Positions 13,051 to 18,174 of a DNA stretch of 64,000 nucleotides are shown here, piece after piece; position 1 is the stretch's first letter, and every line of letters starts with the position of its first letter. Origin of the DNA: Roseithermus sacchariphilus (GTDB lineage: Bacteria > Bacteroidota > Rhodothermia > Rhodothermales > MEBIC09517). The stretch spans positions 3,830,449 to 3,894,448 of the forward strand of contig CP030158.1 of the NCBI GenBank assembly GCA_003285105.1, written 5' to 3'. Made by a program: the position numbers and the translations under genes. The notes beneath the pieces are model-generated. The model was not told where the DNA came from. It worked only from the letters and a program-made list of their open reading frames with translations, and made no database searches.

Positions 13051-14038
13051 TCACCGGTCGAGCGGGCTGCGGACCGTGGTGCCCCGGTTCAGCACGTGCG
13101 TGTAGATCTGCGTCGTGCGCACGTCTTTGTGGCCGAGTAGCTCCTGGACGGTGCGGATGTCGTAGCCCGCTTCGAGCAGGTGCGTGGCGAAACTGTGGCG
13201 GAAGGTATGCGGCGTGGCCGGCCTGGTGGTTGGCTTGCCTCGCGGCTCGCTTGACGTGTTTCTGGATGAACGATGCCGACAGATGGTGGCGGCGCTCGAC
13301 CCCGCTGCGGGGGTCCATGGAGCGCTGACAGGAGGGGAACACGTACTGCCAGGCCCACTCGGTTGGTGCGTTGGGATACTTTCGTGCCAGGGCGTTCGGC
13401 AGGTAGACGGCCCCGTAGCCCGCCTCCAGATCCTGTTCGTGCAGGACGCGTGCGTGCCGGAGTTGCCGCTGTAGCGGCTCGTGTAAATGCACGGGCAGCA
13501 TCGTGACGCGGTCCTTAGCTCCTTTACCCCGGCGGACGGTGATCTGGCTGTAGTGGAAGTCCAGGTCCTGCACGCGCAGGCGCAGGGCTTCCGAGAGGCG
13601 GAGGCCGGAGCCGTAGAGCAGGCTCGCCACGAGACGTGGGACGCCTTCCATGTGCTCAAGGATGCGTATCACCTCCGCGCGCGAAAGCACCAGCGGCAGG
13701 CGCTCTGGCTGTTTTGCTCGAATGAAGGAACCGAAGGCATCGAGGTCTAACCGGAGCACCTCGCGGTAGAGAAAGACGAGGGCGTTGAGCGCCTGGTTTT
13801 GCGTTGAGGCCGCGACATTACGTTCCAGGGCGAGGTAGTCGAGGTAGCGGCGCACCTGCGCAGCCCCGAGGGAGGCGGGGTGGCGCGTGCCGTGATAGCG
13901 GATGTAGCGCTTGATCCAGCGCAGGTACGCCTGCTCGGTAGAATACGCCAGGCCGCGACGGCGGCAGGCCGTGCGTACCTGGTCGAGCAGTTTGGGAGCA
14001 GACGCAGGGCGGGGAGTAGCTTTTTCCATGGAAGGCAT
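13051..14038 (-). pseudogene. intI: Integron integrase (IntI-type tyrosine recombinase), frameshifted
   Basis: Two overlapping minus-strand frames together give one full integron integrase. The first frame (14038 down to about 13228) has the SAM-like N-domain, the box I Arg in [11 protein letters not shown], the Lys in RGKGAKDR, and the IntI-specific extra segment ([20 protein letters not shown], then [11 protein letters not shown]). The second frame resumes at [17 protein letters not shown] and carries HxxR, LLGHKDV and the nucleophile Tyr in TQIYTHVL, ending at stop 13051. The break near 13228 is a net -2 (or +1) change in an AACCACC context. Unless it is a sequencing error, the product lacks HxxR and the catalytic Tyr. 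It is transcribed away from the cassettes, as in integrons. Confidence 0.9.
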
Positions 14039-14492
14039 GGTATCTTGGGCCCTACGTGGAACGTACCAGGTTTCTTGCCAGACCCACCTAGTGCTGCGTC
14101 AAGCCTGTTCTGACAGGTTCTGCGCGGTCCGTTCGCCCGCCGGCGGCGTTCCCGAATCTTGCCGTAGCTCTGGCTACGCCGCGGTTCGGCGCCTTGCCGG
14201 CGACCAAACAGCCGCGCGCATGAACTCGTCATTTCATACTTGACGCAGCACTAGGACACACCTATAACCTTCTACCATGGTGGATACCGTCCGCTTTTGC
14301 CGCATACGATACGTTGGAGCAAGCCGCTGTGATTGCGCGATTTGCCTGGCGAATTGTCCTGAGCAATACGTGGATGGCGTCCGCTGAATACATGTTATAC
14401 CGCTTTTCCAACGGACGGTGACGGAGGGTTGTCACCCTATCTCAATATCTTCTCTGCATCTTTCACACACCCGCCTCCTGTATCAATCGATT
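14039..14492. other. Integron attI/leader region between intI and the first cassette gene
   Basis: A 454-base stretch without a gene. It contains the intI promoter side (14039-14086, with TACGT and ACGTA arms around GGA), a MITE-like insertion (14088-14254), and a presumed attI segment (14255-14400). The attI candidate holds a near-direct repeat (GTGGATACCGTCCGCT at 14279-14294 against GTGGATGGCGTCCGCT at 14370-14385) and ends in CATG-TTATACC, where G/TT at 14394-14396 is a plausible crossover. Confidence 0.55.
14088..14254. mobile_element. MITE-like element with CTAG-flanked 12-bp terminal inverted repeats
   Basis: A 17-bp perfect inverted repeat (14087-14103 and 14239-14255) bounds a 167-base non-coding, GC-rich, hairpin-rich segment. 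Both ends carry CTAG (14088-14091, 14251-14254), which could be a target duplication, leaving 12-bp ends TGCTGCGTCAAG/CTTGACGCAGCA. There is no open frame long enough for a transposase. An internal CGTAGC/GCTACG hairpin is also visible. It lies inside the integron leader. The parent insertion sequence is not in this window. Confidence 0.7.
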
Positions 14493-15191
14493 ATGGCACG
14501 TTGCACAGCCCCAGTCCGAGGTCATCGTACAGCCAGCGGAGCTGCGAATTGCCCTGTGTGTGGTCCGCGGTCGCGTTACAGGTCTCGGTCCTACTACTCC
14601 TCACCCGTCCCCCAATACCGGAGCAGTAGAAGCGTGTCGTCGTCTAGCGGCGGTACGTCGGGCCGGTCTTGGGGTGGGGGCTCTGTGTCTTACACGCCTA
14701 CCCAACGGCGTACGCTTGAACCTATTCGCCGCGAGGCCGAGAAGCAGGCAGTATCCCACCCTGAGCGCCGTGACCTATTCCTTTGCCACGCTTGGGCTGA
14801 CCGGAAAGGTGCCGCAAAGGAGTTGCACGACACGCTGGAGTCTCTTGACGCGACCGTCTGGTTCAGCGAGAAGGATGTCGGCCTCGGCAAGTCGCTACTT
14901 CGTGAGATCGACAGGGGCCTGCGGATGAGTCGAATCGGCATCGTGCTGGTAACCCCGGCGCTGCTCAAAAGCCTTGAGGCCGAGGGAATCGCGGACAAGG
15001 AACTATCCGCATTGCTCGCGACCGACCGAGTCATCCCCGTTGCCCACGGTACGACGTTTGAGGAACTTCGGGAAGTCAGCCCATTGCTCGCCTCGCGTTC
15101 CGGATTGAGCAGTGAGGGCTCGTCTCTGAAAGATGTCGCCGCCATGATCGCGGACACAGTGCGTGTCAAGGACCCGACCTGCACGGTATAA
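14493..15191 (+). CDS. TIR domain protein (first integron cassette gene)
   Basis: A 232-residue protein. The N-terminal 20 residues (MARCTAPVRGHRTASGAANC then PVC) look like a short zinc-binding knuckle, followed by a Ser/Tyr/Arg-rich linker to about residue 85. A TIR domain follows (about 90-210): RDLFLCHAWADRKGAAKEL, then VWFSEKDVGLGKSLLREI with the BB-loop and the acidic residue usual in TIR NADases, then IGIVLVTPALL. Bacterial TIR proteins often cleave NAD in anti-phage defence, and a similar role is possible but not shown here. Start ATG 14493 was preferred to GTG 14418 because homologous proteins begin with this Cys-rich segment. It is the first gene after the presumed attI. Codon use is less GC-rich than in flanking host genes. 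Confidence 0.8.
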   Translation: MARCTAPVRGHRTASGAANCPVCGPRSRYRSRSYYSSPVPQYRSSRSVSSSSGGTSGRSWGGGSVSYTPTQRRTLEPIRREAEKQAVSHPERRDLFLCHAWADRKGAAKELHDTLESLDATVWFSEKDVGLGKSLLREIDRGLRMSRIGIVLVTPALLKSLEAEGIADKELSALLATDRVIPVAHGTTFEELREVSPLLASRSGLSSEGSSLKDVAAMIADTVRVKDPTCTV

Positions 15192-15270
15192 TCATACCGC
15201 CTCGCCGTGACGCACCGATGAAACTCTGCCAGTCATCGACTTTGCCACCCTCGGCAAACCCGTATCCACT

Positions 15271-15567
15271 ATGAGCTACCTCGCCTTCTGCACGTTCGAC
15301 CTCAAGAACGCGAGCCGACAAGACTACGACAACGCTTACTCTGACCTCAAGCAGATTGGACTTGAGCGAGTCGTGGTTGCCAGTAATAACAACAATGTGG
15401 TAATCCCAACGACTTCAGCAATGGGTGAATTCAATGGAGAGTCTGTGGGATCGGTGCGTGACTTCGTGCGGGACAAAGTCAAAGCGGCGTTCAAGGCTCG
15501 CGGCTTAACCTCTGAAATCTTCGTGGTGGTAGGTGGCAATTGGGCTTGGGGCTCTACCACTACCTGA
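15271..15567 (+). CDS. Small hypothetical protein, integron cassette region
   Basis: A 98-residue protein without a family name I can give. It starts MSYLAFCTFDLKNASRQDYD, has a predicted beta-alpha-beta-beta-alpha-beta pattern (YLAFCTFDL, DYDNAYSDLKQIGL, RVVVAS, FVRDKVKAAFKARGL, EIFVVVGGNW) and ends GNWAWGSTTT. The pattern suggests a small ferredoxin-like fold, superficially like Cas2/VapD-type proteins, but no catalytic signature is visible. It lies 79 bases after the TIR gene on the same strand and 74 bases before the KTSC gene, and may share a promoter with them. The gaps on both sides lack a complete attC. Confidence 0.6.
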   Translation: MSYLAFCTFDLKNASRQDYDNAYSDLKQIGLERVVVASNNNNVVIPTTSAMGEFNGESVGSVRDFVRDKVKAAFKARGLTSEIFVVVGGNWAWGSTTT

Positions 15568-15641
15568 CCCTAGCCACTCAGCGGAATAACTCAGGGTATA
15601 TCGTCTGCGGACACTCGACCCTCCCACAACCCTAGAACATC

Positions 15642-15869
15642 ATGGAACGCTATAGGAATCTCGGCGGCGACTCGGGCATTTCCGCCTATGAGATCGGCCC
15701 CGACTCGATTACGGTGCAGTTCAAAGGCGGAGCCACGTACCTCTATACAAACCAGAGTGCTGGCAGTGCCAACATTGACCATATGAAGCAGCTAGCGCGG
15801 GCTGGCCAGGGGCTCAACAGCTTTATCAGCCGCGTGGTCAAGAAGGGCTACGCTAGGAAGCTGCGGTAG
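15642..15869 (+). CDS. KTSC domain protein, integron cassette region
   Basis: A 75-residue single-domain protein of the KTSC family, named for a conserved Lys-Thr-Ser-Cys pattern and found in small bacterial proteins and beside RNA- or phage-related genes; the biochemical role is unknown. Here the domain reads ISAYEIGPDSITVQFKGGAT, then YLYTNQSAG, ending in VKKGYARKL. The start ATG 15642 is the only good one. An attC site begins 35 bases after the stop, so this is the last gene of its cassette. Confidence 0.8.
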   Translation: MERYRNLGGDSGISAYEIGPDSITVQFKGGATYLYTNQSAGSANIDHMKQLARAGQGLNSFISRVVKKGYARKLR

Positions 15870-15903
15870 CCAAATCAAATGGCAGGGTAGGTCCAGCGTA
15901 AGG

Positions 15904-16030
15904 GCGGTATAACCAGCCAGTCCAGCGGACAAAGGGCTTGACGGCCCTACCTGTTTTCGCTGCTGGCGATTCCATAGCTTCACTGAAAAAACCATTGGCC
16001 CTTTGCCGCTGACCGGCGGGCCGTTATGCG
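15904..16030 (+). repeat. attC site 1 of the integron (intact)
   Basis: R'' is GTATAAC at 15907-15913 and R' is G/TTATGC at 16023-16029. The L arms pair: AGCGGACAAAGGGC on the left against GCCCTTTGCCGCT on the right, with one unpaired A on the left arm, the extrahelical base that sets strand choice in folded attC recombination. Arm lengths (24 and 25 bases between R and the inner end of L) match on both sides. Total length about 127 bases, within the usual attC range. The next cassette begins at TTATGC, 16024. Confidence 0.85.
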
Positions 16031-16105: not shown

Positions 16106-16519
16106 ATGAACACCAGAAATGGCCGGATTGCTACCGCTGTATCAATCGTCTCCCTACTGCTCGCCGGGTGTACAATCCCAACGAAAGAAGCGAATGAGCA
16201 AGCCATTCTGCATGTTCACGTTCAGGCCTACTTCGACAATGAGGAAGTGCGAGTGGAACTCAACGATGAACTCGTCTTCAACCAACGCGTCCGGTCAACG
16301 CGGGCTGGATATGCAGAGATCATCGAGACGGGCGAGCCTGCCTTCATGGAGTTTGCAGTAGCGCCAGGAACACAACAGCTCCGTCTCTGGGCAGAGGGTG
16401 TACTTCGCGTCGATACTACCTTTGCGGTGCAAGACACGCTATGGATTGGGCTGGGACGGCATTATGATCGTCCAGAAGTGATCATCCACATTCGTAGAAA
16501 GCCTTTGACGTACTTGTAG
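16106..16519 (+). CDS. Small lipoprotein, integron cassette gene
   Basis: A 137-residue predicted lipoprotein: basic start MNTRNGR, hydrophobic IATAVSIVSLLLAGC with lipobox Cys at about 22, then a soluble beta-rich domain (HVHVQAYFDNEEVRVELNDE, EFAVAPGTQQLRLWAEG). No family was recognised. The gene fills one cassette: its left edge is the G/TT of attC 1 and its attC 2 begins 11 bases after the stop. Base composition is lower in GC than the host genes around the integron. Surface or secreted proteins of unknown role are common cassette cargo. Confidence 0.75.
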   Translation: MNTRNGRIATAVSIVSLLLAGCTIPTKEANEQAILHVHVQAYFDNEEVRVELNDELVFNQRVRSTRAGYAEIIETGEPAFMEFAVAPGTQQLRLWAEGVLRVDTTFAVQDTLWIGLGRHYDRPEVIIHIRRKPLTYL

Positions 16520-16529
16520 CTGGAAAGCC

Positions 16530-16624
16530 GCATAACCAGCGCATCAACGCGGACGCAGGGCTGTCGGCGTTTTCCCGACCAACATTGCTGTCGCTCGTGA
16601 TTGTTGCTATGTTGAACGAAACTA
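16530..16624 (+). repeat. Left part of attC site 2, split by IS630
   Basis: R'' GCATAAC is at 16530-16536, followed by the left L arm (CGGACGCAGGGC, 16550-16561) and a central GTCGGCGTTTTCCCGAC hairpin (16563-16579). The site is interrupted at the TA at 16623-16624. The matching right arm GCCCTGCGCCG and R' GTTATAT lie at 17672-17703, beyond the insertion. The left arm again has one extra A relative to the right arm. This stretch shares AGCGCATCAACGCGG and the central hairpin with attC 3. Confidence 0.8.
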
Positions 16625-16633
16625 TAGCGTAGG

Positions 16634-17236
16634 TCAATAATGTTGAGGCAGGAAGCCGCAGTGCTGGAACCATCCCGCGGCATCCGCCGCCGTCACCTGC
16701 TCGGTGGCATACTCCACGGCCTCCAGCAGCGCTTCCGCCGTGTCCGCACAGGCCTTCTTGATCAGATGCTTCAACTTCGACCACAGCAGTTCGATCGGAT
16801 TGAACTCCGGACTGTAGCGCGGCAGCGGCCGGACGCAGGCGCCCCGCGCCTCGATCTGTTCGACCAGGTCCGGTGCCTCGTGGATGCGCGCGTTGTCCCA
16901 CAGCACGATGTCGCCCGGCTTGAGTACCGGCAGCAGGTGCTGCTGGATGAACCCGCGGAAGTGCCAGCGCCGCACCGTGCCGGTATGCATGGCCACCGTG
17001 CCGGCTCCATCAAAGCCCAGCCAGCCCAGCAAGCTGACGCGTTTTCCCTGCCGCAGCGGGGCCTGACAGACCAGGCGCTCGCCCCGAGGCGCATAGCCGT
17101 AGGCCAGGCGCATGCCCTGGATGACTCCGCTTTCATCAACGGCTTTGATCCTGGTCGCATCGACCGTACCGAGCCAGTCGCGGAAGGCGGCCCGCTCGGC
17201 TACGACGTCGGGGCGCTGTTGCTGCGCGGCCTGCAT
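16634..17236 (-). CDS. IS630 transposase, DDE catalytic part (orfB)
   Basis: A 200-residue RNase H-fold DDE domain. First Asp in KAVDESGVIQG (about residue 34), second in IVLWDNARIHE (about 112), and the Glu in PEFNPIELLWSKLK (about 147), which is the IS630-type D-D-E spacing. It has its own ATG at 17236. A run of eight A residues on the coding strand just upstream, inside the end of orfA, would let ribosomes slip by -1 and make an orfA-orfB fusion, the usual active transposase of this group. Confidence 0.9.
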   Translation of the reverse strand: MQAAQQQRPDVVAERAAFRDWLGTVDATRIKAVDESGVIQGMRLAYGYAPRGERLVCQAPLRQGKRVSLLGWLGFDGAGTVAMHTGTVRRWHFRGFIQQHLLPVLKPGDIVLWDNARIHEAPDLVEQIEARGACVRPLPRYSPEFNPIELLWSKLKHLIKKACADTAEALLEAVEYATEQVTAADAAGWFQHCGFLPQHY

Positions 17237-17589
17237 CGTCTTTTTTTTCGCGTCAGGCCCAGTCGCGCCCGGACCCGGCCCATCGTGCGGCGGCTGACCC
17301 GACGCCCGGTGTGCTCGGTGAAGCGCTGGGCCAGTTCATCCTGTGTCAGGTCGGGCTGGGCCTCAATCCAGGAGCGGACGAGGGCCTCGTCGGCCTCAGT
17401 TAGCAGCCGTCGGGACCCGCCGGGTTTTTTCGGCTCGAGCGAGCCGCTCTGCCGGGCCTGGCGAATGACGCGGTCGACGGAAGCCTTGCCGACGGCAAAG
17501 CGCTGGGCCAGGTCGGCCCGGGAGCCTTCGCCGCGCTCATAGGCACGGGCGATGCGCCACCGTAGATCGGTGGAAAGGGGAGCGGGCAT
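17200..17589 (-). CDS. IS630 transposase, DNA-binding part (orfA)
   Basis: A 129-residue N-terminal part with two helix-turn-helix segments: LRWRIARAYERGEGSRADLA with FAVGKASVDRVIRQ, then DLTQDELAQRFTEHTGRRVS. It ends ARLGLTRKKRRC before a short out-of-frame tail. The A8 slippery run is at the Arg-Lys-Lys-Arg codons, so a -1 shift leads into orfB in the right register. The start at 17589 lies 73 bases inside the right terminal repeat. Confidence 0.9.
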   Translation of the reverse strand: MPAPLSTDLRWRIARAYERGEGSRADLAQRFAVGKASVDRVIRQARQSGSLEPKKPGGSRRLLTEADEALVRSWIEAQPDLTQDELAQRFTEHTGRRVSRRTMGRVRARLGLTRKKRRCRPRSNSAPTS

Positions 17590-17664
17590 CAGAGTAGCCA
17601 GAGCAAAAGGAATGGATACAGAGTCAGACTGAAGATAACATCAACCGCGATGACCTACGCTATA

Positions 17665-17703
17665 CCCGTAGGCCCTGCGCCGGTTATGCCGGGGCCGTTA
17701 TAT
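17665..17703 (+). repeat. Right part of attC site 2, split by IS630
   Basis: It holds the right L arm GCCCTGCGCCG (17672-17682) and R' as G/TTATAT (17697-17703), giving the same 25-base arm spacing as attC 1. An alternative R', GTTATGC at 17683-17689, pairs perfectly with R'' but gives unequal arm lengths, so it is less likely. The HicBA cassette begins at 17698. Confidence 0.75.
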
Positions 17704-17770: not shown

Positions 17771-17986
17771 ATGCGCAACGAGTTCACCGCCATCATCGAG
17801 CAAGACGAAAACTGGTTTATCGCCTATTCGCCTGAGATTCCAGGGGCCAACGGCCAAGGCCGAACGAAGGACGAAGCACTTGAGAGCCTACGCGAGGCGA
17901 TTTTGCTGATCTTGGAAGACCGGCGAGAAGACGGCTTGCGCGGGGTGCCACCAGAGGCCACCCGAGAGACGGTTGTGGTGGAATGA
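17771..17986 (+). CDS. hicB: HicB-family antitoxin
   Basis: A 71-residue short HicB-type antitoxin, lacking a separate DNA-binding domain. It has the partly degraded RNase H-like fold: FTAIIEQDENWFIAYSPEIP, then GANGQGRTKDEALESLREAI. HicB neutralises the HicA ribonuclease. A good ribosome site GGAGAGAC precedes the ATG, and the stop overlaps the toxin start as ATGA. The order antitoxin-toxin is one of the two found for this family. It sits in a cassette between attC 2 and attC 3, a typical place for toxin-antitoxin pairs, which help hold cassette arrays in chromosomes. Confidence 0.92.
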   Translation: MRNEFTAIIEQDENWFIAYSPEIPGANGQGRTKDEALESLREAILLILEDRREDGLRGVPPEATRETVVVE

Positions 17987-18174
17987 AACGGAACGCGCTG
18001 CTGAAGCATTTGCGCAAGCATGGCTGTTATCTCAAGCGCGAAGGCCGATCTCACTCGCTATGGACGAACCCTGAGACGGGAAAAGTAGAAGCAGTTCCGC
18101 GTCACACGGAGATCCCGGATTTGCTGGCGAGGAAGATCTGTCGGGCGTTATCGGTGCCAGAGATCGCGCGCTGA
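17983..18174 (+). CDS. hicA: HicA-family toxin (mRNA interferase)
   Basis: A 63-residue HicA toxin with a double-stranded-RNA-binding-like fold: KHLRKHGCYLKREGRSHSLW, with the catalytic His of GRSHSLW and the HTEIPDLLARKICRAL helix. It cleaves mRNA when free of HicB. The full domain is present, so it may be active. It overlaps hicB by four bases (ATGA), and attC 3 begins six bases after its stop. Confidence 0.92.
   Translation: MKRNALLKHLRKHGCYLKREGRSHSLWTNPETGKVEAVPRHTEIPDLLARKICRALSVPEIAR

Follow-up and report, generated by a model that had tools for sequence, protein, structure and literature searches.

The segment at positions 14394-16029 is probably a single integron cassette fused from three cassettes, those of a TIR-domain protein, a 98-residue protein (p98) and a KTSC-like protein, in which the TIR protein most likely acts alone and the other two are unrelated passengers; we place the probability of this reading at about two in three. 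The segment lies within a window of 64,000 nucleotides, positions 3830449-3894448 of the 4.8 Mb single-contig genome of Roseithermus sacchariphilus, and its features are listed in Table 1. An initial sequence-only reading had proposed either that the three genes form a multi-gene defence cassette or that they are a group of cassettes whose internal attC sites have been lost. The layout on which that proposal was built is as described: the three open reading frames are co-directional, separated by gaps of 79 and 74 bases, and no full attC precedes the one that follows the KTSC-like gene. Both gaps nonetheless contain short attC-like remnants.

Table 1. Coordinates of the integron integrase gene, the proposed composite cassette and the neighbouring cassettes in the window.
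Feature	Position	Strand	Basis and remarks
intI, integron integrase gene	13054-14038	-	Two frames, split near 13200; catalytic HxxR...Y part in the second frame
MITE-like element	14087-14255		About 168 bases; terminal inverted repeats CCTAGTGCTGCGTCAAG/CTTGACGCAGCACTAGG; separates intI from the array
Start of proposed composite cassette, R'-type core GTTATACCGC	14394-14403	+	Exact reverse complement of the attC1 R'' box
TIR-domain protein gene, 232 aa, ThsB-type	14493-15191	+	PADLOC PDLC00424, Pfam TIR_2, family alignment
attC scar 1, R''-like ACGGTATAAT overlapping R'-like ATCATACCGC	15183-15200	+	Motif scoring; hairpin noted
p98 gene, 98-aa ferredoxin-fold protein, phrog_22820	15271-15567	+	
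attC scar 2, R''-like GCGGAATAAC, 4-base spacer, R'-like GGTATATCGT	15581-15604	+	Motif scoring
KTSC-like protein gene, 75 aa	15642-15869	+	Relatives occur on their own or as domains within phiKZ-type virion proteins
attC1	15904-16029	+	R'' 15904-15913, R' 16023-16029; sole complete attC of the proposed composite cassette
Second cassette, putative lipoprotein	16106-16519	+	attC2 from 16528
Third cassette, HicB-like/HicA pair	17771-18174	+	Followed by attC3, R'' from 18177

The integrase gene is divided between two frames, of which 13232-14038 matches NCBIfam TIGR02249 over profile positions 1-253 (1.4e-101) and 13054-13659 matches the same model over positions 256-314 (3.5e-30). Because intI is frameshifted, cassettes in the array probably no longer move unless integrase activity is supplied in trans; the frameshift near 13200 may be a sequencing error. 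Copies of the MITE-like element are present at seven genomic places with 95-100% identity. Between 13.0 and 19.5 kb the top-scoring attC-like site is attC1, with a score of 14.7; the control, made up of the rest of the window, peaks at 12.3. The idea that attC1 forms an unusually stable hairpin was rejected, as its fold is no more stable than those of shuffled sequences (z -1.13). The attC2 site of the lipoprotein cassette is broken by an IS630-type transposase gene that lies in two frames at 16528-17700, and the third cassette gave Pfam matches to HicA_toxin (1.7e-8) and HicB_lk_antitox (2.9e-4; below cut-off). An Rfam search over the window returned one tRNA and nothing else.

Each of the two gaps holds an R''/R' pair in the correct order with 16 of 20 matches when scored with the array's own motif, compared with 10-12 in the leaders of the three cassettes. 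Scores of this size are rare in genomic windows (P 0.0013 and 0.0002 for the first and second gap) and in Markov sequences (P 0.0008 and 0.0002); permuted motifs reach them in 0.135% and 0.045% of cases, and in 0 of 20,000 for both gaps jointly. The scars are imperfect, with 8+8 and 9+7 matches to the boxes of 10, and the stop codon of the TIR gene falls inside the first of them. Because R''/R' scars occupy both gaps, a three-way fused cassette is the simplest reading of the segment. We infer that the fusion came about when attC sites that once followed the TIR and p98 genes lost their stem-loop bodies, which would have left the R''/R' scars behind. With attC1 alone remaining, the three genes are predicted to be mobile only as a block, and read-through from upstream would express them together. 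Fused cassettes that arose by partial or total attC loss are co-transcribed and excised as a unit (PMC4670013). As in the fused blaGES-1/aacA4 cassettes, there is no complete attC between the genes, a short remnant is kept and a complete attC stands at the end (PMC4670013); unlike that two-gene example, the segment contains three genes, belongs to an environmental chromosomal integron and carries no resistance gene, and its scars retain both R''-like and R'-like boxes.

Of the seven copies of the 10-mer GTTATACCGC in the genome (4.8 Mb), two are the cassette start and the R'' box of attC1. Complementarity between start and R'' was considered as proof of a single cassette and is weakened by the finding that attC1, attC2 and attC3 match the start equally over 12 bases (10 of 12 each); only the contiguous 10-base run sets attC1 apart. 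A two-gene cassette in another genome (G096, locus L071), whose second gene encodes a KTSC-like protein 89% identical to that in the window, likewise starts with a sequence, GTTATACGGCC, that is the reverse complement of its own R''. The gap between its two genes scores only 13, which shows that a cassette can hold several genes and yet lack a clear scar. Separate-cassette states of the genes were found elsewhere for p98 (loci L003 and L006), and the KTSC-like gene was found in the two-gene cassette just described; none was found for TIR.

The distribution of the three genes was evaluated in 394 genomes of the phylum. Full-length TIR relatives are confined to G000, G235 and G308, p98 was found in G000, G224 and G360, and the KTSC-like gene is present in 16 genomes that include G000 and none of the other four just named. 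No other genome among the 394 pairs any two of the three, and neither TIR nor KTSC-like genes were found near p98 relatives at eight loci. Since co-occurrence is absent both from the 394 genomes and from the surroundings of the eight p98 loci, the trio is not a conserved unit in the sample searched, in which the three genes never occur together elsewhere. The proposal of a functional defence trio is not supported by this distribution, nor by the finding that p98 is a lone cassette in two of the eight loci. The other proposal, of cassettes that have lost their internal attC sites, is supported by the paired R''/R' scars in both gaps and by the autonomous p98 cassettes.

Multi-gene defence cassettes do exist, and a shared strand, short gaps and a single complete attC would be expected of a true three-gene defence operon, one designed cassette in which the TIR protein is the effector and p98 and the KTSC-like protein serve as sensor or regulator. 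In such an operon the KTSC-like protein could take part in phage sensing, given its likeness to phiKZ-type virion proteins: it shares about 50% identity with one section of a phiKZ-like virion structural protein (L097:2501-2710). The absence of co-occurrence in the 394 genomes and around the eight p98 relatives, the travel of p98 as a cassette by itself, the solitary state of TIR relatives and the attC scars in both gaps all argue against such an operon, which we regard as highly improbable.

The two smaller proteins would, under the preferred reading of three fused cassettes, be unrelated passengers. p98 matches phrog_22820 (1.6e-17) and no family in Pfam, NCBIfam or PADLOC; relatives in eight genomes with 60-67% identity establish it as a real family. 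The ferredoxin-like label that the protein was initially given agrees with its AlphaFold model, a beta-alpha-(beta)-beta-alpha-beta fold with mean pLDDT 83, and with its nearest PDB folds in Foldseek, which are dimeric ferredoxin-like proteins and Cas2 (weak matches; best E 1.9e-3, TM about 0.5). The predicted fold and a conserved Asp after strand 1 resemble Cas2 and small ferredoxin-like proteins; unlike Cas2, p98 lacks a sequence-level match, and the PADLOC Cas2 model reaches one p98 relative only (E 0.019). A PDB profile search with p98 gave chance hits only, which leaves the Cas2 likeness on the weak fold matches. Plasmid and phage searches with p98 returned no matches. At L003 (1093-1544) the p98 relative is the lone gene between two attC sites, at L006 it is likewise a lone cassette, flanked by attC sites of its own in an array that contains many, and at L004 the next attC lies about 330 bases downstream of it. 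The L003 contig is recorded as Paenibacillus dendritiformis, and the integron cassettes there could be foreign or contaminating DNA.

The third protein belongs to a real family, with relatives at 45-89% identity that are also found on plasmids, and the KTSC label itself is weak: the window protein does not match Pfam KTSC (PF13619), and the model reaches 2 of 12 relatives with a best E of 0.061, not above the cut-off.

Pfam TIR_2 matches the TIR-domain protein at 3e-13 and the PADLOC ThsB model PDLC00424 at 3.5e-90 over residues 1-224, a full-length profile match. An alignment of 16 sequences from Actinomycetota, Pseudomonadota, Bacillota and the window's own phylum places the family start at 14493 (MARCTAP), and CTAPxxGH, CPxC, FLCHAW and KELSxLL are common to all 16. 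The protein consists of an N-terminal CTAPxxGHR...CPxC motif, a Ser/Gly/Tyr-rich linker and a TIR domain with KELSALL, whose Glu170 is conserved in 16 of 16 aligned sequences and is the putative catalytic glutamate on the basis of motif likeness rather than structure. Cys4, His11, Cys20 and Cys23 may bind zinc as an N-terminal zinc knuckle. PDB comparison returned TIR domains that include the NADase AbTIR and those of other bacterial TIR proteins; a single-sequence AlphaFold model of the protein (pLDDT 50) was set aside.

Homology to ThsB lends good support to the suggestion that the TIR protein by itself is a defence effector, and a one-gene, NAD-consuming defence protein is the most likely description of it. 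We infer its NADase activity, its trigger and its role in defence: upon infection the protein would assemble and consume NAD, by analogy with SpbK (PMC12847820). SpbK is a stand-alone TIR protein of Bacillus subtilis that functions as a one-gene NADase defence (PMC12847820), and the TIR protein of the window resembles it in being a one-gene TIR protein with proposed action by NAD cleavage; it differs in its N-terminal CTAP...CPxC region and linker, and the likeness is drawn at the level of the TIR domain.

The likeness to Thoeris ThsB, which extends over the full PADLOC profile (PDLC00424) and to the Glu in the KEL motif of the TIR domain, raises the alternative that the protein is an orphan ThsB whose product, an ADP-ribose-type signal, acts on a ThsA-like effector encoded elsewhere in the genome, since the signal that activates ThsA in Thoeris is made by ThsB (PMC11204291). 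A Thoeris system also has a ThsA effector (SIR2-SLOG or TM-macro), and none was detected here: the SIR2-associated STALD model (PF18185) and the ThsA_Macro model (PF20016) are both without a match in the genome. The same models match four and three other genomes, respectively, of the 394 in the phylum, so their silence in this genome carries weight as far as these two types of ThsA are concerned. The relatives of the TIR protein are mostly solitary, and no ThsA annotation stands beside them in the plasmid regions inspected; the single macro-domain neighbor, in Agrobacterium, is part of a DarT pair. We consider an orphan ThsB of this kind unlikely. The protein may instead signal to an effector unlike ThsA, which is the main alternative to direct NAD consumption.

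The contexts of the TIR relatives are consistent with a gene that functions by itself. In most of the plasmid regions inspected the full-length relative is a solitary gene, and the 3.9 kb plasmid pCM59 carries a TIR relative, mobV, two replication genes and nothing else. No relative was found in a cassette context, and a viral-contig search with the TIR protein gave no matches. The plasmid-borne state of most relatives would also fit a non-defensive protein that serves in plasmid maintenance or competition or is linked to housekeeping, or one that is a decayed passenger here. A housekeeping link is suggested by G308, where a full-length relative is located between the genes for the small and large subunits of ribonucleotide reductase in the order nrdB-TIR-nrdA (L073:3537-7013), and by a Cereibacter plasmid in which a relative adjoins another ribonucleotide reductase gene. 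These are just two such contexts among those inspected, and the open reading frame in the window is intact with every invariant motif kept, which argues against decay; we regard this explanation as unlikely.

Fused cassettes and ThsB-type TIR proteins are both known kinds. A literature search found no direct match for integron TIR or solitary ThsB cassettes. For integrons, decay of internal attC sites can mimic a multi-gene defence cassette, which bears on how operons and defence systems within them are called automatically. For the TIR proteins, a widespread ThsB-type family that usually occurs without ThsA is a candidate one-gene defence system. Tentatively, and at somewhat less than even odds, the solitary family marked by CTAPxxGHR...CPxC may constitute a so far uncharacterised one-gene system against phages (or plasmids), independent of ThsA, for which small plasmids and, in this genome, an integron cassette serve as vehicles of spread.
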